Notes under the pieces: model-generated | What the model was told of the DNA's origin: nothing | What the model saw: only the letters and a program-made list of their open reading frames with translations | Databases searched by the model: none | Assembly (NCBI GenBank): GCA_012517385.1 | Contig: JAAYUZ010000099.1 | Coordinates: 1-60,174, forward strand | Length of the DNA stretch: 60,174 nt | Reading direction: 5' to 3' | From: Treponema sp. | GTDB taxonomy: Bacteria; Spirochaetota; Spirochaetia; Treponematales; Breznakiellaceae | Shown: piece after piece, positions 8,698 through 57,400 of the stretch | Position numbering within the stretch: the first letter of the stretch is position 1 | How the letters are laid out: each line of letters begins with the position of its first letter | Program-made: the position numbers and the translations under genes

Positions 8698-9045
8698 CTA
8701 CTCCTCTTTACTAATTTTTGATATTCCACGGGCCCAATCGACCGGAAGGGTAAACATGAGCCCGGTACCTGGCTGTTCTAATGAACCAATTGTCTTTTCT
8801 ACAAGCGGCACAAGCTGATCTAACATAGCCTCATCTTCGATAACTGAAAGGATGGTTTTGTTATAGGGCTTATTTCCCTTCATAAAATCCTTAAAACCGG
8901 CAAAAAGGGGAACCTCGTAGGAAAGAAACCGGCCCATTCCTTCAGAATCAAGAATGGTAGCCCGGGATATTCCCGCTTCGACATAGGCTTCTAAAATTTC
9001 TTCTAAATAGTTTTCATCATTAACAATAAATACTAGAAGCTTCAT
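8698..9045 (-). CDS. P-II-like small regulatory protein, first gene of the Mrp operon
   Basis: A 115-residue protein starting MKLLVFIVNDENYLEEILEAYVEAGISRATILDSEGMGRFL and ending in an acidic-basic tail. The beta-alpha-beta start, the mid-protein YNKTILSVIEDEAMLDQLVPLVEKTIG and the length suggest the ferredoxin-like fold of P-II proteins, though the canonical T-loop tyrosine and ATP motifs are not seen. An upstream TTG at 9081 is in frame but sits inside a TTGACA -35 box, so the ATG at 9045 is preferred. It leads the operon PTS IIA-mrpEFG-mbhD-mbhE/B-mrpC-mrpD. Its role may be to sense a small molecule or membrane energy state. Function is not established. Confidence 0.65.
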   Translation of the reverse strand: MKLLVFIVNDENYLEEILEAYVEAGISRATILDSEGMGRFLSYEVPLFAGFKDFMKGNKPYNKTILSVIEDEAMLDQLVPLVEKTIGSLEQPGTGLMFTLPVDWARGISKISKEE

Positions 9046-9169
9046 ACCCAAAGTATCCGGGGCCCCGGTTGGTATTGTCAAGTTTTTTTAGTATTATTGA
9101 CAGAGGTTCTTGCAAAAGTAACGTATTTTTGCAATTGTCACCCTATAATCGTTAACAAAGGAGTTCCCC
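9046..9169. promoter_or_regulatory. Divergent control region of the Mrp operon and gpmI
   Basis: On the minus strand TTGACA (9081-9076) is followed after 18 bases by GATACT, and only six bases later comes the ATG at 9045, with no Shine-Dalgarno sequence. On the + strand TATAAT lies at 9144-9149 and AAAGGAG at 9157-9163 before the gpmI start at 9170. A palindrome, TTGCAAAA (9110-9117) with TTTTTGCAA (9126-9134), sits just upstream of that -10 box and belongs to the window-wide repeat family. Confidence 0.5.
9104..9134. repeat. Class I intergenic palindrome (degenerate copy)
   Basis: Arms TTGCAAAA and TTTTTGCAA flank GTAACGTA. The centre AAAAGTAAC and the leading GAGGTT agree with the perfect copies at 14.5 and 35.7 kb. 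It lies in the gpmI promoter region, so it could affect transcription there. Confidence 0.55.
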
Positions 9170-13024: not shown

Positions 13025-14128
13025 CTACAGAGGAATCAGCATACCCTGGCAGCGCTTGAACCAGCCAGTCCTTAATTGGTACTGCTGTTCCAGGACCTGA
13101 TTCAGGGGCAGCGGGTCGGCCCAGACCGGTTTGCAGGGGTGGCCAGTCCTGTCGCAGATAGAGAGGCCCCCATTGCCGATGCGATCAGCCGCATCGGCAG
13201 GAACGTGACCGGTATCTATAAAACTGGAAATAAACTGGAATAAAAACTCCGCCCCTTCCCGGCAGGCATCCAGGAACAGGTTGATGAACGAACGGGTATC
13301 TTCCTTACCTTCCTGACAGGGATGTCGCCAGCTCTGGTGAGCCAGATTAAGGTAATCGATGGTAAGCGGGAAGCCCTCTGGATAAATAAGAGCCACCGAT
13401 GCGGGGGTCTGGTCATTCCGTAAATAGAGCCCCTCATCCTTTTTTCTTTGGTTCATAGAAGTTCTCTGAGGATTGGTTGAGCGATAAAAGCTAGCCGCAT
13501 CCAAGAGGGCATTTTCGATCCTCTGAACCAGCAAAGGATCCTTGCCGGCCCGTTCAGGATAGGCGGTACGCAGCGCATCGGCCAGAGTTTCTATCAGGTA
13601 AACAGGAGGTTCTTCACAGGCCCGGGTAAGAACAGCATCCTGGTTCCAGGCAGAAATATGCATACCCTGCAAGAGTTCCAGCAGTTGCACATCGAGAATT
13701 CGCTCAAAAAAGGCATGGAGCCTGCCATATTTTGCGGTTTCAGGCTTATCCGGCGAAACCCAGCCGGCCTTATAGACTATGTAAGGATGGGCTACCCGAT
13801 CCAGGTATGCATGGGTGAGAAATCCTAATGAGTAGGCACCAAGGCTTGTCAGGGCTGAACTGAGGGTCCTTTTCAGCAGTACGGTCATAAAGGTGCCAAA
13901 ACCGCGGCGGTGCAGCAGGCTTCCATATTCTATTGCCACAGGTCGGCGTCTTTGGCTGTGATAAAAAATATCCGGCCCCTGACAACCCAGGGCAAAGGAT
14001 GAACTATACAGGCTTTTTAGTTTAGCTATGGGATCATCAAAACGGTGACCATACTTTTCCTGTAACAGTCCTTCGCAGATGCGTATCAGTTCCTTTCCAA
14101 ACAGGATATGGGCAATTTGAGCAGGCAT
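13025..14128 (-). CDS. Zinc-dependent phospholipase C family protein
   Basis: A 367-residue protein of the Zn-dependent PLC/S1-P1 nuclease-like helical fold. [14 protein letters not shown] gives the N-terminal His, [13 protein letters not shown] the second metal region, and [17 protein letters not shown] and [11 protein letters not shown] further His/Asp ligands. There is no signal peptide, unlike secreted phospholipases C, which matches the group of cytoplasmic homologues of unknown substrate found in Firmicutes and spirochaetes. The ATG has no Shine-Dalgarno sequence; instead TATCCT lies 7 bases upstream. A repeat palindrome sits directly before that. Confidence 0.75.
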
Positions 14129-14145
14129 ATAGGTAAGGATATCAA

Positions 14146-17924: not shown

Positions 17925-17960
17925 TTGACAAAAGGGCAAGGCTTCCGTAGGCTCATGGTC
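17925..17960 (+). promoter_or_regulatory. Promoter of PBP1A, start-codon-proximal
   Basis: TTGACA (17925-17930), spacer of 17, then TAGGCT (17948-17953). Seven bases later is the ATG at 17961. Transcription would begin at about the start codon, giving a leaderless message. Confidence 0.5.
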
Positions 17961-23157: not shown

Positions 23158-23904
23158 TTATAGACGGAACAATTTTCGTAGAGAAGCTTTTTTCATAATA
23201 CGGTAATGCAGATAAAAGAGGAGCCCCCCCATAGGAATACAAACAAAGGAAACTATCACTGACCAGTCCAATGATAGCCTGTGGTAGAGGTTTAAATCGA
23301 TAATTCCTTCCAGACCGACACACAGGAGGCTTACCGCAAGCAACAGAATTGCGAACACATTTAAGCCCTTCCTGCGGGAAATTCCAATAAAGAGAGCGGC
23401 CAGGGTAATACAGAGTTCAACAAGAATCGTGATCGGGAGTCCATAGTTCAAATACCAGCTGATGTGTCCATCCAAAACATCCAGGACAAAGATGAGCAGG
23501 GGAATACTCGGGCCCAGAACTGCAAATATTATCCAGGGATACTTTTTTAAAATCAATGGAATGCAGATGACGAGCCATAACATAAGGATGCCAAGGCCTG
23601 CATACAGGGACCAGGAAAGCTGATGTTCAGCAAAGAGATTAGCAAGGACAGTAACAATCAGGGCAATACCCAAAAAAACGGAGATTAGCTCAACAGCAAT
23701 GATGCTGTTGAGCTTCGGTTCTATTTCATCAACCTGCACAGGTCGTTTCTCTTTTCCCGATCTAAAGGATGGATATTCTGTTGAACCCGGTAGGTGTTGT
23801 GTTTCTGTGCGTTGCAATTCCCCCTCCACCGTTGCTTTGCCGCAGAGTGGACACCGTTCATCGGTTTCACGCACTATAACTAAACAATACGGACAATGTC
23901 TCAT
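23158..23904 (-). CDS. Zinc-ribbon membrane protein (DUF6320-like)
   Basis: A 248-residue protein. An N-terminal zinc ribbon (CPYCLVIVRETDERCPLC) is followed by a ~40-residue linker and about seven membrane helices (LNSIIAVELISVFLGIALIVTVLANLF and onward), ending with a short basic tail. Its ATG overlaps the stop of the upstream acyltransferase gene. I recall proteins of this type being found beside condensation-domain acyltransferases in Firmicutes, which fits the pair here. The role may be to hold or supply substrate at the membrane; no catalytic residues are visible. Confidence 0.6.
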   Translation of the reverse strand: MRHCPYCLVIVRETDERCPLCGKATVEGELQRTETQHLPGSTEYPSFRSGKEKRPVQVDEIEPKLNSIIAVELISVFLGIALIVTVLANLFAEHQLSWSLYAGLGILMLWLVICIPLILKKYPWIIFAVLGPSIPLLIFVLDVLDGHISWYLNYGLPITILVELCITLAALFIGISRRKGLNVFAILLLAVSLLCVGLEGIIDLNLYHRLSLDWSVIVSFVCIPMGGLLFYLHYRIMKKASLRKLFRL

Positions 23905-25223
23905 AGGTGGTACTCTCCTTCATTCTGACTACTTATTACAAAAACATCGATATCAAAAGATGACAGTTTGGAAAAAAACCGGCGTTCAAAATCCTTATCC
24001 CGGACCATACTCCCGATATTGATGTAGAGCCGATTCTGCCAGGTAAGGGCCCCCACATTAGCCCCGGTAGTTCGCGCCCTGGATGGAATAAAGCTGAAGC
24101 GAACCACATGGGAAGCAAAGGGTTCTGGCAGGTCTATGATACCCACATTAGAAAGAGAGCCAGAATAGGCCCCCACACCGATTATGGCATTAATAATCCT
24201 TAGCACCAGGGTTTTTACGGGCAGAATGACAATCTTGCCTAAGGGGTTCCGTTCACCCCCAACATTCCGTTTAAGCTGCCGCACCAGTTCCTTCTCTTCG
24301 AGGCCAATCTGCATTTGATGATGAACCCGTCTCAGAAGTTCCTCGAATGTCCAGTGTCCAAGTCTTACATCAATATAGGGGGCTACAAACAAAAAGAAAT
24401 TCCGCAAGGATTTAGAAGGATAGTTTTTCCTTAAATTTACCGGGACCTGCACAGAAATGATTTTTTTTGCCTTCTTTTGGGCTCTCCACGGAAGAGCTTC
24501 GTACAAATCCTGAAGCACATCCAGATGAACCGCTGTTAGGAATTCTGTCAGCGAAACCTTATAATTCTTTGCTACAGCCAACACCTGCTGCACATCCATG
24601 GAACCCAGGGTTTCTCGATAGGCGATAAACATACGGGGGCCAGGGATAGTGAAGGCTTGCCCTGTTTTATCGGGGACCGTGGCGGTGGGTCTGAAATATT
24701 TATTATATCCGTCTTCGGCCTCTTCGCTATCTGCCGGCTCCCGGGGATGCTTAATACCGGCCGCTTGCAGGGTACTATCATCAATATCGGTACCGATGCC
24801 TATTCTACGAAGGTATTCCACCGTGAGGGCCCGCATAAAGGCGATGGCACCAGTACCATCGGTGATCACATGATGAAATTCTACGGATATACGCCTGCCA
24901 TAGGCAAAAATCCGTACCGCTGGGCGGTCCCCACCCCTGGGCATGGGAGCACAGGGATACGGTAATTCCTTTTCTACCCGGGGAGGCTTTGATACGGGGT
25001 CAAGATAATGCCAGAATACTCCACTGCGAAGGCGTACAAAAAAATAGGGGAACCGGGGAAACAGGGCATCTACCGCATCCTGCAGGGCAGGCACAACTAT
25101 GGGTGCATCTAACTCACCATAAAATCTGAAAACAAATGGTCCCGAGGCTCCAGCGATGGCAGCCATAAAAATGGCACTATTATCCAGGGAATAAAAAATA
25201 TCGTCGTGTTTTTTCAGGGCCAT
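23901..25223 (-). CDS. Condensation-fold acyltransferase (alcohol acetyltransferase-like)
   Basis: A 440-residue protein of the chloramphenicol-acetyltransferase/condensation-domain superfamily. The catalytic motif HHxxxDG is intact in SVEFHHVITDGTGAIAFMRAL (about residue 130). VPVNLRKNYPSKSLRNFFLFVAPYIDVRLG and YSGSLSNVGIIDLPE correspond to the floor-loop and the conserved NxG region. Members join an acyl-CoA to an alcohol or amine. The ATG at 25223 is preferred to an in-frame TTG at 25241; it lacks a Shine-Dalgarno sequence and has TATAAT 7 bases upstream. It is coupled to the zinc-ribbon membrane protein by a 4-base overlap. The substrate is unknown, with no biosynthetic cluster around it. 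Confidence 0.75.
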   Translation of the reverse strand: MALKKHDDIFYSLDNSAIFMAAIAGASGPFVFRFYGELDAPIVVPALQDAVDALFPRFPYFFVRLRSGVFWHYLDPVSKPPRVEKELPYPCAPMPRGGDRPAVRIFAYGRRISVEFHHVITDGTGAIAFMRALTVEYLRRIGIGTDIDDSTLQAAGIKHPREPADSEEAEDGYNKYFRPTATVPDKTGQAFTIPGPRMFIAYRETLGSMDVQQVLAVAKNYKVSLTEFLTAVHLDVLQDLYEALPWRAQKKAKKIISVQVPVNLRKNYPSKSLRNFFLFVAPYIDVRLGHWTFEELLRRVHHQMQIGLEEKELVRQLKRNVGGERNPLGKIVILPVKTLVLRIINAIIGVGAYSGSLSNVGIIDLPEPFASHVVRFSFIPSRARTTGANVGALTWQNRLYINIGSMVRDKDFERRFFSKLSSFDIDVFVISSQNEGEYHL

Positions 25224-25342
25224 ACCGCTAATTATAGACAATTTTTACAATTTTTTGTTGCATTTTTTTAATTGCCCCCTTTTCATTTTCCTGGATTCCA
25301 ATTATTTTACTAATAAAGTCAACTTTAACCGGGAGGTTATCT

Positions 25343-37622: not shown

Positions 37623-37706
37623 AGCCATATATTGTAATAAGGCGTCTTAAATTACAAGTAGTTTGCCTTGGACTAAAAAGAGAATAAAGAGGGTTCCCTG
37701 CTTTAG

Positions 37707-40831: not shown

Positions 40832-42676
40832 CTACCGGGGGAAATGGATAGAAACCTTCGTGCCACCGGGCCCCGTTTCCAGAGCCAGTGTTCCCTTAAT
40901 TTGTTCTGTGAGGCCCTGCATAATGACGCTTCCGGTTCCGCTGCTCTTTGAAATTCCTTCGGCACCTTCAGGGTCAAAACCGCAGCCATCATCCTGAACA
41001 GCCAGGGTAAAAAACTCGTCATGGCTTTTTAATGTAATCTGGATATGCCCCTCGGTTTTTCCATTAAAGGCATACTTAAAGGCATTGGTAACCAGTTCTA
41101 CAAGAATGAGGGCACAGGGAATTGCCCGGTCAAGGGGTAAGTGGATATCATCCGTATCGACTGATATGAAAAGCGGAATAAACAGGGAATGGTAAGATTC
41201 CAGGCTCTCCGCAAGACGGTTCAGGTAGGAAGCCATAGGTACGGCGCTGAAGGAATCGGAGGTGTAGACCGTCTCATGAACCATGGCCATGGCATATACC
41301 TTTTCTTCCAGTTCTAACAAGATCTCCCTGGTTTGATTATCATCAGAATTATCCGCTTCCAGGTGCAGGAGGCTTGCAATAACCTGAAGATTATTCTTAA
41401 CCCGGTGATGAACCTCCTTAAGGAGGATATCCTTATCCAGAAGCGACTGTTTCAAAGAATCCAGGGTAGCCTGCAGTTGAGAGAGCAGCCCTTGAAAGGA
41501 CCTGGCTAATGACCCCAGTTCTGTTTTTCGGTCCGCAATGGTATGTAACAGGGTCTCCTCTTCCTTAGAAAAGGCAAGCGAATGCTGGGCTTCCAGACTC
41601 AGCCGACTCACCAGGGCGGTAAATTGGCGTATAGGGGTATCCACTGCAGAAACTATGCCGTACACCAGGAGGGAGAATAGGAACAACGCCACCATATAGA
41701 CGAGCGAAAGGTTAGAAAGGGTAGATCGGAGCTGGCTGCGAAAGGCAGTCTCCGGCAATGCAACGGTGATAAGCCAGGATGATCTAATCCGCCCCTGATA
41801 CTCCAGGGTTAAAAACCTGTAGGGTTCACCATTAATAAAGAGCGTCTTTAACCCTGCTGAAGGATCCGGTGCAAAGGAATATATGGTGGGCTCCTCCCGA
41901 TTAGCATTGATTATCAGTTTTCCATCCCTGTCCCGAATCAGCACATAGCCATTAAATTCATCAGCCAGTTCCCCTACTGTTTTTATAATATCATCCAGAA
42001 GTATATCGACCGTAAGTACTCCACGGACCTTCCCCTGTTCGGAATACAGGGGCTTGCTGGCGGCAATTACCTTGCTGCCCGTAGAAACCAGGTTATAGGG
42101 GTCGGAAAAGGAAATTTGTCCCGCCGCTATTGCGCTTTCATACCAGGGCCGCTTCCGGGGATCGTAGGAGGTCCGGCGATCCAGTATTTCCTTTGTCCCC
42201 TCCGGGGTATACCTGAACCATACAAGATCCCCGCCGGTTTCCTTTCCAGCCCTGCCATACCGGATGCTCCCATCCTCCATCCGCTGAGCCTCCGCATACT
42301 CACCGTCAGCAAAGCCTGCTGAAACGATATGCAGGGCAGGGAACGACTCAAGTTCCTTCCCAAAAAGCACAGGAAGCTCATCAGGATGGATTGCAGGACC
42401 ATATTCAAATAGGATGCGGTTTGTCTCCAGCAATGTGATATTACTGTCCAGATAGGATGAAAACTGTTCAAATACAAGCCGGGAAGAACGTTCCGCCAGG
42501 TCTTGTATACTGGCATCAGAAAAGGACCGCAAGCCCCGGGAAGTAAAAAACCATGAGACGGAGAAAACAATTGCAAGCAATAAAAAAAAAGTCCCAAAAA
42601 GGGTCCGTTTTAATTTGCCTCTGCTGAATATATGTAAAAAAAAATCCTTAGGGATTCTTAGTAGGTCGTGAATCAT
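40832..42676 (-). CDS. HisKA_2-type sensor histidine kinase with dCache sensor
   Basis: A 614-residue membrane kinase. Helix one is at about residues 25-45, then a ~270-residue extracytoplasmic dCache domain (RRTSYDPRKRPWYESAIAAGQISFSDPY is the typical core). The second helix is near 325-345, followed by a HAMP-like linker, HisKA_2 with phospho-His in LLKEVHHRVKNNLQVIASLL (about 423) and an HWE-like ATPase with ELVTNAFKYAF and DDGCGFD. No response regulator gene is adjacent; the family often signals through stress-type regulators. The ATG at 42676 has no Shine-Dalgarno sequence but a perfect TATAAT six bases upstream. Confidence 0.93.
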   Translation of the reverse strand: MIHDLLRIPKDFFLHIFSRGKLKRTLFGTFFLLLAIVFSVSWFFTSRGLRSFSDASIQDLAERSSRLVFEQFSSYLDSNITLLETNRILFEYGPAIHPDELPVLFGKELESFPALHIVSAGFADGEYAEAQRMEDGSIRYGRAGKETGGDLVWFRYTPEGTKEILDRRTSYDPRKRPWYESAIAAGQISFSDPYNLVSTGSKVIAASKPLYSEQGKVRGVLTVDILLDDIIKTVGELADEFNGYVLIRDRDGKLIINANREEPTIYSFAPDPSAGLKTLFINGEPYRFLTLEYQGRIRSSWLITVALPETAFRSQLRSTLSNLSLVYMVALFLFSLLVYGIVSAVDTPIRQFTALVSRLSLEAQHSLAFSKEEETLLHTIADRKTELGSLARSFQGLLSQLQATLDSLKQSLLDKDILLKEVHHRVKNNLQVIASLLHLEADNSDDNQTREILLELEEKVYAMAMVHETVYTSDSFSAVPMASYLNRLAESLESYHSLFIPLFISVDTDDIHLPLDRAIPCALILVELVTNAFKYAFNGKTEGHIQITLKSHDEFFTLAVQDDGCGFDPEGAEGISKSSGTGSVIMQGLTEQIKGTLALETGPGGTKVSIHFPR

Positions 42677-42757
42677 GAGATAATTATACCATGATTAGTA
42701 TGCGAAGTAATACTAGAGACTTTTCATTTTAGCCAAATTCGACTTACAATATCCTGT
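42677..42757. promoter_or_regulatory. Divergent leaderless-type promoters of the sensor kinase and argA
   Basis: Only 81 bp separate two divergent start codons. Leftward: TATAAT (42688-42683, minus strand) and six bases to ATG. Rightward: TACAAT (42745-42750) and seven bases to ATG. Neither side has a Shine-Dalgarno sequence. Both predicted transcription starts fall at the start codon. The -35 boxes are weak. Confidence 0.55.
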
Positions 42758-44080
42758 ATGGATGAACAAAACCGGAGCCAGGTGGACCTCATACGGGAAG
42801 CCTTTTACTACCAGAGCCGCTTTGATGGCACCACCATGGTCTTTAAGATTGATTTTCCCGTTACCGAGGACCCCCAGTTTAAGTATCTCATGAAGGATCT
42901 GGCCCTGCTTGCCCAGACAGGGATACGGATCGTGATTGTTCCCGGAGCCAAAGAATGGATAGATGCGGTGCTTAAGGAGTACGACATAGAATCATCCTAC
43001 GAAGGTCCGATCCGTATTACCACAGAAGATGCTATTCCCTTTGTTAAAATGGCGGCCTTTGAGGTGGCGACCCGGTACATGACCGAGTTATCTGCCAGCC
43101 GGGTCGATGCGGTAATCGGCAACTTTGTACGCGCCCGGGGTATCGGTGTGGTGAAAGGAGTGGACTTTGCCCATTCAGGGATGGTGGATAAAATACAGGT
43201 GGATAGCCTTAAAAGATTGATGGATCTGGGGATGGTGCCGATCCTGCCCTGTATCGGCTGGAGCCGCGCGGGTAAGCCCTACAATCTGCCAAGTGATGAG
43301 ATTGCCCTCGCTGCCTGTGAAGCCCTGGGGGCTGTCAAATTCTTTATCGTGTCCAACCGGCCGCCTATATCCAGCGAAACCTGTACTATCCCTGACTCTG
43401 TGCTTCCCGGTCCATCAAACCGCATTGCCCGCCTTACTCCCCAGGAAGCTGAAGAGATACTCAAGCTTAATCCTGAACAGGCGGATGGTCCCACTCTCAG
43501 GGAACTAGCCCTGGCGATTCGGGCCTGCCGTCTTGGGGTTGAACGGGTCCATATTGTAGACAGCCGCATAGAAGGGGCGGTACTTCGGGAACTGTTCTCC
43601 AACCTTGGGGTAGGCACCATGGTCTATGCGGATGAATATGAATCGATCCGGCCCCTTAAGACGGGGGATGTAACCGAGGTACTCAGACTCATGGGGCCCC
43701 TTATGGAAAAGGGTATCCTCCTGCAGCGAAATGCGGAACATATCCTTGAAAAAATTGATGACTATGTGGTTTACGAAGTAGATGGTTCAGTCCATGCCTG
43801 TGGCGCCCTCCACGACTGGGGGGAAGCCCAGGGAGAAATCGCCGCCCTTGCAACGGACCCGAACTACACAGACCTGGGCCTTGGCCGCAGAATCGTAGGC
43901 TTTTTAATAGACCGGGCCAGGAAACGGGGCTTCCGCCGGGTTTTTGTACTCACCACCCGGACCCATGACTGGTTTGAATATCTGGGCTTCAGGGAAATTC
44001 CCGTGGAAGCCCTCCCTGAAAAAAAACGACGGGTCTACAACCAGGAACGGAGAAGCAAGGCCTTCGCCCTGGATCTCTAG
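42758..44080 (+). CDS. argA: N-acetylglutamate synthase, kinase-like plus GNAT
   Basis: A 440-residue enzyme. The N-terminal amino-acid-kinase fold spans about 20-290 (RIVIVPGAKEWIDAVLKEY, LGMVPILPCIGWSRAG) and a GNAT acetyltransferase the last 150 residues (IAALATDPNYTDLGLGRRIVGFLIDRARKRG is the acetyl-CoA loop). This is the long ArgA of E. coli type, which acetylates glutamate to start arginine synthesis and is often inhibited by arginine through the kinase-like part. It heads a rightward cluster with recO, the pyrimidine phosphorylase and recJ. No Shine-Dalgarno sequence precedes it. Confidence 0.92.
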   Translation: MDEQNRSQVDLIREAFYYQSRFDGTTMVFKIDFPVTEDPQFKYLMKDLALLAQTGIRIVIVPGAKEWIDAVLKEYDIESSYEGPIRITTEDAIPFVKMAAFEVATRYMTELSASRVDAVIGNFVRARGIGVVKGVDFAHSGMVDKIQVDSLKRLMDLGMVPILPCIGWSRAGKPYNLPSDEIALAACEALGAVKFFIVSNRPPISSETCTIPDSVLPGPSNRIARLTPQEAEEILKLNPEQADGPTLRELALAIRACRLGVERVHIVDSRIEGAVLRELFSNLGVGTMVYADEYESIRPLKTGDVTEVLRLMGPLMEKGILLQRNAEHILEKIDDYVVYEVDGSVHACGALHDWGEAQGEIAALATDPNYTDLGLGRRIVGFLIDRARKRGFRRVFVLTTRTHDWFEYLGFREIPVEALPEKKRRVYNQERRSKAFALDL

Positions 44081-49679: not shown

Positions 49680-50747
49680 CTAGCGCATGGACCGCAGGAA
49701 CTCCCCGTAGGCCCGGTACACAGCTCCGTTCATCAATATGGTACTGTGACTTTCTTTAAAATACCAAACCACCGGCTTCAGCCCATCAGGCTTCGCAAAA
49801 CCTTGCATATACCCGTTGGTGATATCCAAAGGGGTAAGCTGGTCATAATCGGCGACGAGAAAGGCAATACGCTCCGGGGGTATATTAGGCCTCCTGGCAT
49901 AGCGGGGGCTGATAGAAGCCAGCATCGATTCTACTTGCGCGGACCCAATGCCCGCCGCCTGGAACTCCCTTCGGATCTCCGTAAAGGGACGAGAAGCCCA
50001 TATCGTGTTCCAATCCAGGAGAGGGATCATGACCGCCAGATGATCCAGATCCACATCCTGGGCGAGCCTGAGCAGATTTGCAGCGCCGAAACTGCCGCCC
50101 CAGGCTCCGATACGTACGTATCCCTGGGATTTAAGCCACCCATATCCCCGGCGCAGTTCCTCTAGCGCAGCGTTCATGTTCGCCACAAGGATATTCAGGT
50201 CCGGTGAAATAAGACCCGCTCCGGGGGCCTTACCTGGGATCTGACGCTCCAGATGAAAGGGAGGCACCCAGACCAGGACCGCCCAGCCAGATTCAAGCTC
50301 GGTCCGGAAGAATCGTTTAATAAATAAAAAAGCCAGGTCCGAAACACCGAAACCGGGAGCCCAGAGAATGGCCTTTGTAAAGGGTTTTCCCTCTGGATGA
50401 AAATAATAAAAATAGCTTGGTCCCAGGCTTGCTCCTCCCACGGGGGGAAAGCTGAGCAGTTCCCCCACAACGTTCATGTGGGGGACCGAAAGTTTCCACC
50501 GTTGTAGGGGCCGCCGCTCAAGCGGAAGATCCAGGTGAAGCTCAGCAGGAACAGGGCTATGTAGCCCCCTCGATCCCACATCTGGTAGAGGCTGGTCTGA
50601 AACCTTCGGGGGATTCACCGCTAATTCGGTTTCGAGGGATCGGGCATAATCACCAAGCCCATTAAGATCCATATTGGCTTTAAAACTTTGGCAGGACCAT
50701 AGACCCATAAGGCTCACCCCACATATAAGGATTTTCATATACTTCAT
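49680..50747 (-). CDS. Alpha/beta hydrolase lipoprotein
   Basis: A 355-residue exported protein. ILICGVSLMGLWSCQSF is a lipoprotein signal with Cys about 19. The hydrolase has the nucleophile elbow GAWGGSFGAANLL, the acid in FLVADYDQLTP and the His in KESHSTILM, so the triad looks complete. AILWAPGFGVSDL gives the oxyanion strand. Its substrate is unknown. It is convergent with rpsU and divergent from the phosphodiester glycosidase gene, also a lipoprotein. No Shine-Dalgarno sequence is seen; TATATT ends six bases before the ATG. Confidence 0.8.
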   Translation of the reverse strand: MKYMKILICGVSLMGLWSCQSFKANMDLNGLGDYARSLETELAVNPPKVSDQPLPDVGSRGLHSPVPAELHLDLPLERRPLQRWKLSVPHMNVVGELLSFPPVGGASLGPSYFYYFHPEGKPFTKAILWAPGFGVSDLAFLFIKRFFRTELESGWAVLVWVPPFHLERQIPGKAPGAGLISPDLNILVANMNAALEELRRGYGWLKSQGYVRIGAWGGSFGAANLLRLAQDVDLDHLAVMIPLLDWNTIWASRPFTEIRREFQAAGIGSAQVESMLASISPRYARRPNIPPERIAFLVADYDQLTPLDITNGYMQGFAKPDGLKPVVWYFKESHSTILMNGAVYRAYGEFLRSMR

Positions 50748-50804
50748 TATTATAATATACTACTCTTTCTTGTGCTCCCGGCGGCTTTTTGCTAAATTTA
50801 CACC
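50748..50804. promoter_or_regulatory. Divergent promoter region of two lipoprotein genes
   Basis: A 57-bp spacer. Rightward TTGTGC (50770-50775), 17 bases, TAAATT (50793-50798), six bases, ATG. Leftward TATATT lies six bases before the ATG at 50747. Neither gene has a Shine-Dalgarno sequence. Confidence 0.45.
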
Positions 50805-51719
50805 ATGTATCGATCCTTCAGGTTGATGCACACCTGCTTTCTCTGGGGCCTGTGTCTCCTCTCCTTCTCCTCCTGTACGACGGTGCGCATTGGTACAGAA
50901 ATCCTCTCTGGCCGCGACCGGGACCGGCAAATCACCCTGCCGCCCCTCAGTTGGCAGGACCTGGGACCCATCCGCTATGCTTCGGGCCGTATTAGCAACC
51001 CTCCCCTTCTTTTCTGGGCAGCGGCGGTGAATCTGGAGGACCCAGCCATACAGGTGCTGGTTGTCCCTGAACCTGTCGAATACGGTGTCGTACCTTCCAT
51101 AAAAGTTTCGACCTTCGCGGAATCCTATAACTGCATCATAGCAATCAATGCTAATCCCTTTGACCGGGTATCAGACCAGGAAGGGGAAGCCCGGCAGCTT
51201 GTCGGCATCGCCATGGCGGAGGGTCGGCTCATGGCGGACCCGGCTCCCCGATACGGGGCCCTGCTCATCGACAGTGATCGGAGGGCCCGTATAGTTTCCC
51301 AAAAAGACCTGTTGTTACACGATGGGGCCATAGACTGGAGAGCATTAGAAAAAGTCCGATTTGCCGTGGGAGGTTTTTTTCCGGTGTTGCACGAAGGACT
51401 TGCCCAGGGAGAACGGAAGATACGCTATCCCCGCAGTGCGGTCGGTGTGAGCCGTGATGGGAAAACCCTCTATCTTCTCGCGGTGGACGGCAGGCTCCTC
51501 GATAGTATTGGCACCACCGAAATGGAGACGGGCCAGATTCTGGCAGACCTCGGTGCCTGGGATGGGCTCCTCCTGGACGGCGGCGGCTCCACAAGTCTTG
51601 TAATCCAGGAGAAGGATGGAATCAGGAGGGTTCTGAACCACCCGATCCATGAAGGAACGCTGAACCGGGAACGGGCCGTGGCAACCTGCCTGGGCTTTTC
51701 TATTTCAGGCTCCTGGTAA
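50805..51719 (+). CDS. Phosphodiester glycosidase family lipoprotein
   Basis: A 304-residue exported protein of the NAGPA/phosphodiester glycosidase fold. The signal CLLSFSSCTT has a lipobox (Cys about 25). IIAINANPFD, AVGGFFPVL, PRSAVGVSRDGKTLYLLAVDGR and LLLDGGGSTSLV are family blocks, the last holding the catalytic Asp-Gly-Gly loop. It likely removes sugar phosphodiesters from a surface polymer. No operon partner; it is convergent with the aminotransferase, 13 bases away. A weak T-tailed hairpin (AGGCT at 51707-51711 with AGCCT at 51725-51729) may end it. Confidence 0.82.
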   Translation: MYRSFRLMHTCFLWGLCLLSFSSCTTVRIGTEILSGRDRDRQITLPPLSWQDLGPIRYASGRISNPPLLFWAAAVNLEDPAIQVLVVPEPVEYGVVPSIKVSTFAESYNCIIAINANPFDRVSDQEGEARQLVGIAMAEGRLMADPAPRYGALLIDSDRRARIVSQKDLLLHDGAIDWRALEKVRFAVGGFFPVLHEGLAQGERKIRYPRSAVGVSRDGKTLYLLAVDGRLLDSIGTTEMETGQILADLGAWDGLLLDGGGSTSLVIQEKDGIRRVLNHPIHEGTLNRERAVATCLGFSISGSW

Positions 51720-54353: not shown

Positions 54354-54382
54354 ATGATACATCCTTACGCAATCGATTGCAA
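54354..54382 (-). promoter_or_regulatory. Promoter and operator of the second LacI gene
   Basis: Minus strand: TTGCAA (54382-54377), 17 bases, TATCAT (54359-54354), then nine bases to the ATG. The perfect 12-bp palindrome GCAATCGATTGC (54369-54380) overlaps the -35 and spacer, so binding there would block the polymerase. It differs from the other LacI operator (GCAACCGGTTGC) only in its centre. Confidence 0.7.
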
Positions 54383-54413
54383 TCTTTTTTTAATCCTATA
54401 GAGTACGGGCCCC

Positions 54414-54453
54414 TTGAGACCCCGCGCTTTCACCGGTACAATAGGGACTATCT
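54414..54453 (+). promoter_or_regulatory. Promoter of dnaE
   Basis: TTGAGA (54414-54419), 17 bases, TACAAT (54437-54442), then 11 bases to the ATG at 54454. AGGGA at 54443-54447 could act as Shine-Dalgarno only if transcription starts earlier. Confidence 0.55.
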
Positions 54454-57400
54454 ATGACCGATTTTGTCCATCTCCATGTCCATTCGGATTACTCACTCCT
54501 GGATGGAGCCGCCTCTGTTAAAAGTCTTATCTCTAAAGCTAAAGCCCTGGGCATGAAACACCTGGCCCTCACGGACCACGGGAATATGTTCGGGGCCCTC
54601 AAGTTCTACAAGGAATGCAAGGCTGCCGAAATCAATCCCATCATCGGCAGCGAATTCTATATGACCACCGGCTCCAGGTTTGACAAGAAGGGCTCAGAAA
54701 CGGGGAATGCCTACCATCACCTGGTACTCCTGGCCACCAACGAACAGGGCTACCGCAATCTGATGAAACTCTCATCCCTTTCCTACACGGAGGGTTTTTA
54801 TTATAAGCCCCGGATCGACGAAGAACTCCTGGTTCGTTACCACGAAGGGCTTATCGGCCTTTCTGCCTGCCTGGGAGGCGAAATTCCGAGCCTCCTTCTA
54901 GAGGGAAAAGCTGAGGAAGCCCTCTCCCGGGCCCGGCGACTCCGTGATATTTTGGGGGATGACAATTTTTACCTTGAACTCCAGGACCATGGTTTGCCGG
55001 AACAGAAAAAGGTGAATCCCCTCCTGATTGAGCTTTCTAAACGGACCGGCATACCCCTGGTGGCTACCAACGATATCCATTATTTAGACAAGGAAGATTC
55101 GGTAGCCCAGGACATACTCCTCTGTATATCCACCAATAAGAAACGGAATGAATTGAGCCGCATGCGCTTTGAAACCAGCGAATTTTATCTAAAAAGCGGC
55201 GATGAAATGGCAGCCCTGTTTCCAGATACACCCGAAGCTATTCTCAATACGGTCCGGATTGCCGAACGCTGTCATACCAGCATCCCCCTTCCAGGCCCCA
55301 TGCTACCGGATTTCGAACTCCCCCCGCCCTTTACCAATGGGGCTGACTATATCCGGCACCTGACCTACGAGGGACTTAAAAAACGGTATCCGGAAATCAC
55401 CGAAGAGATTAAAAAACGGGCCGACTACGAACTGGACATCATCATCAAGATGGATTTCGTGGGCTACTTCCTCATTGTGGCGGACTTTATCAACTGGGCC
55501 AAGGAACATGATATCCCCGTAGGCCCCGGCCGCGGTTCCGGTGCGGGCTCCATTGTAGCCTATGCCATGCGGATCACCGACATAGACCCCCTTAAGTATA
55601 ACCTGCTGTTTGAACGATTTTTAAACCCCGAACGGGTGTCCATGCCCGACTTTGACGTAGACTTCTGCTTCGAACGGCGGGGAGAGGTCATTGACTATGT
55701 AACACAAAAGTACGGCCGCGAACGGGTCGGACAGATAATCACCTTTGGAACCCTTAAGGCCAAGGCGGTCATCAAGGATGTGGCCCGGGCGCTAGACATA
55801 AGCCTTGAGGAATCGAACCGGATTGCCAAGCTCATTCCTGAGGATCCCAAGATGACCCTGGCAAAAGCCTTTGAACAGGAACCGGAACTTGCAAAACTAG
55901 CAGAAGACCCGAGATATCAGGAACTGTTTGCCATCGCAAAACGGCTCGAAAATAAAAACCGCCATTCATCCCTCCATGCAGCGGGAATCGTCATCGGCAA
56001 GACAGAACTCACCGACTATGTGCCCCTCTATCGGGATGCTAAAACCGGGACCGTGGCCACCCAATTTACCATGGATCAGATTGAGGAATGCGGCCTCGTA
56101 AAGATGGACTTCCTGGGCCTCAAAACCCTGACCCTCATTAAAAACACCCAGGACCTGATCCGAAAACGGGGCGGTGAATATGCTCATTTCGATGCAGACT
56201 CGGTAAGCGAAACTGACCCGGCTACTTATAAACTCCTCGGAGAAGGCCAGAGCACCTGTGTTTTTCAGTTCGAATCTTCGGGGATGCAGAGTATTCTGAA
56301 ACAGGCAAAACCCAACAAAATAGAGGATCTTATTGCATTAAACGCCCTGTATCGGCCGGGGCCCATGGCCTACATTCCCCAATTTGTCGACTCAAAGTGG
56401 GGCCGGAGACCCATCGAATATCCGGACCCCTGTCTGGAATCCATCTTAAAGGAGACCTACGGGGTCATCGTTTACCAGGAACAGGTTATGCAGGTTGCCC
56501 AGATTATCGGCGGATACAGCCTGGGACAGGCGGACCTGCTGCGGCGGGCCATGGGAAAGAAAAAACCCGAGGTCATGGTAAAAGAAAAGGCCCGATTTAT
56601 TGAGGGTGCTAAAAAGAAGGGCTTCTCCGAGGCTGACGCGGACCGGATCTTTGAAATTCTTGTCCCCTTTGCAGGGTACGGTTTTAACAAGAGCCACGCT
56701 GCGGCCTATTCGGTGGTAGCCTACCGGACCGCCTACCTTAAGGCTAACTTTCCCGCCGAATTCATGGCTGCCAATCTGACCAACGAAATTACCAGCACTG
56801 ACAAACTACCCGAATATATTGATGAAGCCCGCAGGATGGGCATTACGATAGAGCCGCCTGACATCAACCGTTCTGAAAAATACTTTACCGTTGTGGATGG
56901 CAAAATCATCTATGGACTCCTCGGCATTAAGGGACTTGGGGATGCCGCTGCAGACGAAATTGTAAGCAAGCGTATCCAGGGCGGGCCCTACAGGGACTTA
57001 ATCGATTTTCTTGACCGGGTAGACATAAAAACCGTGGGGAAAAAGGTCATCGAACTGCTCATAAAAACCGGAGCCTTTGATAAACTAGGTCAAAGCCGCC
57101 CCACACTTCTGGCTAACCTGGAACGGGCTGTAGAATATGCTCAGAACAAAAAGGATGATAAAAAGTTCGGTCAATCCAGCCTGTTTGAAGAATCGGGCGA
57201 AAAGGAATACCCCGATTTTGAGTTCGAGGCAGCCCCGGACTGGGATAAACAGGATCAGCTTGCCATAGAAAAGGAACTTATCGGTTTTTATTTTTCGGGC
57301 CATCCCATGGATGATTACCGACAGACCTGGGAACGTTCGGTGAGCCTTGACCTTTCCCATCCGGAACGTTCAAGCCCTGACAAGGAATACATCATTCTGG

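Follow-up and report, generated by a model that had tools for sequence, protein, structure and literature searches.

Placement of -10 promoter boxes points to leaderless mRNAs in a Gracilinema genome

About 9% of the ATG-start genes in a Gracilinema genome, and about 8% in a complete congener, are very likely transcribed into leaderless or near-leaderless mRNAs, as judged from the placement of their promoters. We propose that these genes are served by sigma-70-type promoters whose -10 box precedes the start codon by 6 nucleotides (nt), or in fewer cases by 7-9 nt, such that RNA polymerase would begin at, or no more than about 3 nt from, the A of the ATG. The resulting messages, which have no Shine-Dalgarno (SD) site, would be leaderless or nearly so. 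If they behave like their counterparts in studied bacteria, 70S ribosomes would bind their 5'-terminal AUG to begin translation. Where transcription starts from the start codon itself, the message lacks a leader that the ribosome could recognise. The distance peak of the boxes, the -35 spacing, the pyrimidine-purine initiator context, the restriction of the effect to ATG, the position of box genes first in their transcription units and the orthologues together favor the original prediction that such messages begin at the start codon.

Genomes and counting procedure

The window is a contig (C6) of 60,174 nt from a Gracilinema (Treponema caldarium clade) genome of 2.97 Mb in 201 contigs; its argA protein is 90-91% identical to those of metagenome-assembled genomes of Gracilinema caldarium and Treponema sp. 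The source genome (G000) was sampled as 745 kb in stretches, with gene calls made by a hexamer coding score and gene starts taken, from the open reading frame (ORF) and coding score, as the most upstream plausible ATG. This yielded 563 ATG-start genes, 306 with an SD tetramer and 257 without. The same-genus comparison set consists of three genomes, of which G001 is complete (3,239,340 bp). Our strict box test called for TAnnnT with at least one further match to TATAAT, 6-9 nt before the start, in the absence of an SD. The chance level was obtained by shuffling the 30-nt upstream stretches 200 times with dinucleotides preserved.

A distance peak in genes without a Shine-Dalgarno site

In the 745-kb sample, 38 of the 257 non-SD genes have TAnnnT exactly 6 nt before the ATG, against 5.8 +/- 2.3 in shuffled sequence (maximum of 13 in 200 shuffles). 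The counts at 7, 8 and 9 nt are 14, 13 and 16, with about 5 per position elsewhere, and a box at any distance from 6 to 9 nt precedes 74 genes against 22.0 +/- 4.5 after shuffling (maximum 33). This excess of 52 among 563 corresponds to about 9% of the ATG-start genes of the source genome. The complete congener G001 has a box at 6 nt in 40 of 360 non-SD genes against 8.6 in the shuffles, with 25, 12 and 26 at 7, 8 and 9 nt, and the excess comes to about 8%. An earlier run over 442 kb recovered the same peak from coding-score starts as from the longest ATGs. G018, G020 and G022 were each sampled too thinly (59-117 genes) for a peak to emerge from any one of them.

From some ten genes in the window, it had been argued that boxes and SD sites exclude each other in a way hard to ascribe to chance, and that a genome-wide count peaking 6-8 bases before the start among non-SD genes would support leaderless messages. 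The peak is clearly present in both genomes, among non-SD genes but not among SD genes, and the shuffles bear out the argument against chance both at 6 nt and over the 6-9 nt range. Its spacing is narrower than foreseen, with a sharp maximum at 6 nt only and a weaker shoulder at 7-9 nt. As for exclusivity, the 306 SD genes are indeed nearly devoid of boxes (4, 0, 1 and 1 at 6, 7, 8 and 9 nt), but some of that split follows automatically, since either motif takes up bases that the other would need; what counts as real evidence is the excess over shuffles, rather than the contrast between the two classes.

In the same stretches, out-of-frame ATGs (+1 or +2) show no 6-nt peak, and neither do in-frame GTG, TTG and CTG codons. 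Boxes at 6 nt precede 53 of 891 ATGs as against 5 of 536 GTG and TTG codons taken together. Missing as it is out of frame and at the other codons, the peak belongs to genuine start codons, and specifically to AUG. The same script run on a small sample from E. coli found a box at 6-9 nt in 0 of 54 non-SD genes.

An artefact of reading frame or stop codons was considered separately and rejected, as the hexamers at 6 nt are almost all led by TAT or TAC, not TAA or TAG, and there is no peak at 0, 3 or 12 nt. Part of the 9-nt class, in which 5 of 16 hexamers begin with TAG or TAA, may have this origin.

Promoter architecture

For the anatomy of these promoters we pooled 78 genes with a box at 6 nt from G000 and G001. 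The best -35 match at spacers of 16-18 averages 3.63 of 6 positions versus 2.5 at spacers of 10-12 or 22-24 (p ~1.6e-14). The mean match to TTGACA is 2.22, 2.59 and 2.27 at spacers of 16, 17 and 18, respectively, and about 1.1-1.7 elsewhere. TTG occurs at the -35 position in 33 of the 78, compared with 4-5 in controls, and the -35 signal is confined to these three spacers. A 6-nt gap places the -10 box at -12 to -7 and therefore the +1 on the A of the ATG. The base at -1 is a pyrimidine in 69 of the 78 genes versus 281 of 444 other non-SD genes (p ~6e-6); a pyrimidine before a purine start is the usual initiator context. Further, 63 of 70 box genes are divergent from, or at least 40 nt away from, the upstream gene, as against 339 of 733 SD genes, a spacing that is expected if box genes are the first genes of their transcripts.

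The divergent kinase and argA genes

The pattern can be seen at close quarters in a divergent gene pair of the window:

40832..42676, minus strand: sensor histidine kinase gene (Cache, HisKA_2 and HATPase domains; ORF and Pfam), predicted to be leaderless
42683..42688, minus strand: kinase -10 box TATAAT with an extended TG (TGGTATAAT), 6 nt before ATG 42676
42745..42750, plus strand: argA -10 box TACAAT, 7 nt before ATG 42758
42758..44080, plus strand: argA-type N-acetylglutamate synthase gene (AA_kinase and GNAT domains; ORF and Pfam), predicted to be leaderless

Both arrangements were read correctly in the original prediction: TATAAT-6-ATG (42688..42676, minus strand) and TACAAT-7-ATG (42745..42758, plus strand) are exact in the sequence. 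The kinase upstream region on the minus strand reads TGGTATAAT-TATCTC-ATG, with no other ATG ahead of the transmembrane segment, and that of argA on the plus strand reads TACAAT-ATCCTGT-ATG.

We aligned argA from 15 loci: four within the genus (the window genome and its three congeners) and eleven in other genera of its family. TAnnnT lies 6-7 nt from the ATG in 11 of the 15, including the window, and one further locus shows GATAAT at 6 nt. The distance from the ATG to the conserved VDLIREAF motif ranges across these loci from 7 to 12 residues, a variation of 5 residues, and the box tracks the ATG. Since it moves with the ATG as the N-terminal length varies, the box appears to be set by the start codon, and we regard this as the strongest single piece of evidence for such a relationship.

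The extended -10 of the kinase is kept in 4 of 4 genomes. In the window genome an ATG lies 6 nt from it; two congeners have the extended -10 TATGGTATATT with a GTG at 6 nt and lack an ATG ahead of the membrane helix; and in G001 the box and the ATG are 15 nt apart, with AAGG close to the latter. The acyltransferase gene (below) has TATAAT-7-ATG unchanged in its congener orthologue, and the G001 counterpart of the second chemoreceptor has no box. More broadly, 8 of 12 boxes of the source genome recur in the G001 orthologue among 35 non-SD pairs, with 3.8 joint boxes expected, a comparison that is weak alone because control distances also exceed expectation, owing to the sequence shared between relatives.

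At 42671-42696, a 13-nt inverted repeat (AATCATGAGATAA/TTATACCATGATT, 85%) covers the kinase -10 and start codon; it is possibly an operator, or else a product of chance. No such repeat was seen by eye upstream of the kinase in two congeners.

Other genes in the window

Eight further boxes had been proposed:

9052..9057, minus strand: weak -10 GATACT of a P-II-like gene (8698-9045), 6 nt before ATG 9045
14136..14141, minus strand: -10 TATCCT of a phospholipase C-like gene (Zn-dependent, Pfam; 13025-14128), 7 nt before ATG 14128
17948..17953, plus strand: weak -10 TAGGCT of the PBP1A gene, 7 nt before ATG 17961 and 1 nt before ATG 17955
25231..25236, minus strand: -10 TATAAT of an acyltransferase-like gene (23901-25223), 7 nt before ATG 25223
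37631..37636, minus strand: -10 TACAAT of the second chemoreceptor gene, 8 nt before ATG 37622 and 2 nt before ATG 37628
50754..50759, minus strand: -10 TATATT of a hydrolase-like gene (49680-50747), 6 nt before ATG 50747
50793..50798, plus strand: -10 TAAATT of a phosphodiester glycosidase gene (Pfam; 50805-51719), 6 nt before ATG 50805
54354..54359, minus strand: -10 TATCAT of the second LacI gene, 9 nt before ATG 54344, with TTGCAA 17 bp upstream (54377-54382)

All ten boxes exist, though not with equal strength: eight pass the strict test and two, those of PBP1A and the P-II-like gene, are weak. The passes comprise the kinase, hydrolase and glycosidase at 6 nt, argA, the phospholipase and the acyltransferase at 7 nt, the second chemoreceptor at 8 nt, only from ATG 37622 (not 37628), and the second LacI at 9 nt, only from ATG 54344 (not 54362). 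For the latter, ATG 54344 is favored because the helix-turn-helix begins at residue 3 counted from it (Pfam). The failures are TAGGCT of PBP1A, which is so placed only for ATG 17961, and GATACT of the P-II-like gene, which is not of the form TAnnnT. Both have TTGACA upstream, at 17925-17930 for PBP1A, whose start (17955 or 17961) is uncertain, and 18 bp upstream at 9076-9081 for the P-II-like gene, whose P-II match falls just below the curated cut-off. In all, four of the ten carry a weak box or hinge on the choice of start codon, the start-dependent ones being PBP1A, the second chemoreceptor and the second LacI. The genes offered as SD-bearing contrasts held up in the case of gpmI, metY, malE, EF-G and yggT, while the GGAGG of malF lies near an alternative start; in malE, lon, yggT and metY the SD is kept wherever orthologues were found.

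The hydrolase and glycosidase genes are divergent, and as their start codons are separated by only 57 bp (50748-50804), their promoter regions must overlap. On the minus strand at 54368-54383, a LacI-operator-like palindrome, ATTGCAATCGATTGCG, overlaps the -35 of the second LacI gene, and a part of it, AATCGATTGCG, is also found upstream of the congener orthologue (L066); autoregulation of this gene through the palindrome is possible. At 54437-54454 on the plus strand, dnaE has TACAAT 11 nt before its ATG in the window genome and 9 nt before it in G001, and because of these short distances it probably has a very short leader with no SD.

Alternative explanations

The boxes could be -10-like hexamers thrown up by chance in upstream DNA rich in A+T, given that TAnnnT is a loose pattern and that about 30% of the boxes at 6-9 nt (22 of 74) would be accounted for in this way. 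For a single gene this is possible; as a general account it is refuted by the shuffles, and we consider it extremely improbable, for it would yield neither the sharp peak at one position, nor its loss out of frame and at non-ATG codons, nor the coupling of boxes to a -35 element and a pyrimidine at -1. Alternatively, the boxes might be real promoters with the start codons wrongly assigned, the true starts lying downstream of normal leaders. The alternative starts in PBP1A, the second chemoreceptor and the second LacI, and the more distant ATG of the G001 kinase with its nearby AAGG, speak for such errors in individual cases, but the peak is locked to ATG and frame, the argA box follows its ATG through changes in N-terminal length, and in the kinase no second ATG precedes the membrane helix. 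Further, the argA start cannot lie further in because VDLIREAF begins within 7-12 residues. Misassigned starts are hence a very unlikely explanation of the whole.

A third reading grants the promoters and the starts, and holds that the messages have short real leaders of 3-9 nt with SD-independent initiation (through S1 or unstructured mRNA), rather than being strictly leaderless. It draws on the 7-9 nt shoulder in both genomes and on dnaE, but the main peak at 6 nt and the pyrimidine at -1 would fix the +1 at the A of the ATG for most genes, making this reading rather unlikely.

Distribution across spirochaetes

For a survey of the phylum we compared TAYAAT 6 nt before ATG with the same motif at 12 nt in 198 genomes and summed the counts for the class; a reversed pattern was dropped as a control because its dinucleotides differ. 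The resulting ratios show presence, not frequency, since the raw counts take in ATGs inside genes: 1.64 in the family of the window (4 genomes), 1.70 and 1.38 in two genera of the Treponema-like family (a large one of 13 genomes and another of 5), 2.4-3.6 in three single-genome families and 1.01 in family f6. In family f7, with seven small genomes that by their size look like Borreliaceae, the ratio is 0.86 (366 at 6 nt versus 425 at 12 nt), making it the only spirochaete family in the survey with many genomes and no 6-nt excess; on these counts it has possibly lost the leaderless mode. We tentatively raise the idea, for which the case is nearly balanced, that the Treponema-side spirochaetes (the Gracilinema family, Treponema-like genera and several sister families) share leaderless initiation as a standing, inherited mode of gene expression, which the Borrelia-like family has lost.

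Comparison with known leaderless systems

Leaderless expression is well mapped in Mycobacterium, Deinococcus and Leptospira; our results would add the treponeme branch, in which annotation based on start sites or SDs would mis-handle about one gene in 10. The findings suggest that spirochaete families differ in this trait, whose distribution could be set against changes in initiation factors or ribosomes, and they furnish a concrete gene list for RNA-end mapping in a culturable relative. Among the titles and abstracts of the open-licence papers searched, none reports leaderless mRNAs in Treponema or Gracilinema.

The 'TA-led' genes of Zheng et al. 2011 (PMC3160421), defined by TANNNT about 10-12 bp upstream of the start codon and no SD, show the same signal; they were recorded in 6 of 18 Spirochaetes genomes, at a mean of 3.9% of genes, and are negatively correlated with operon-distal genes, while the excess in the source genome and its congener is about 8-9% of ATG-start genes. 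Leptospira interrogans, a spirochaete of a distant lineage, has about 440 mRNAs with a 5'UTR of <10 nt mapped by dRNA-seq (PMC5243855), an experimental result set beside our sequence-derived one for Gracilinema. Binding of 70S ribosomes to the 5'-terminal AUG and a preference for AUG are general features of leaderless messages (reviewed in PMC9031893). In M. tuberculosis, leaderless transcripts start at the initiation codon behind a TANNNT -10, with a pyrimidine flanking the purine start (Cortes et al., PMC3898074). The TANNNT box and pyrimidine context are thus common to both organisms, whereas the M. tuberculosis transcripts have no conserved -35 and amount to 22-26% (PMC3898074), as against the clear -35 and about 8-9% in Gracilinema.
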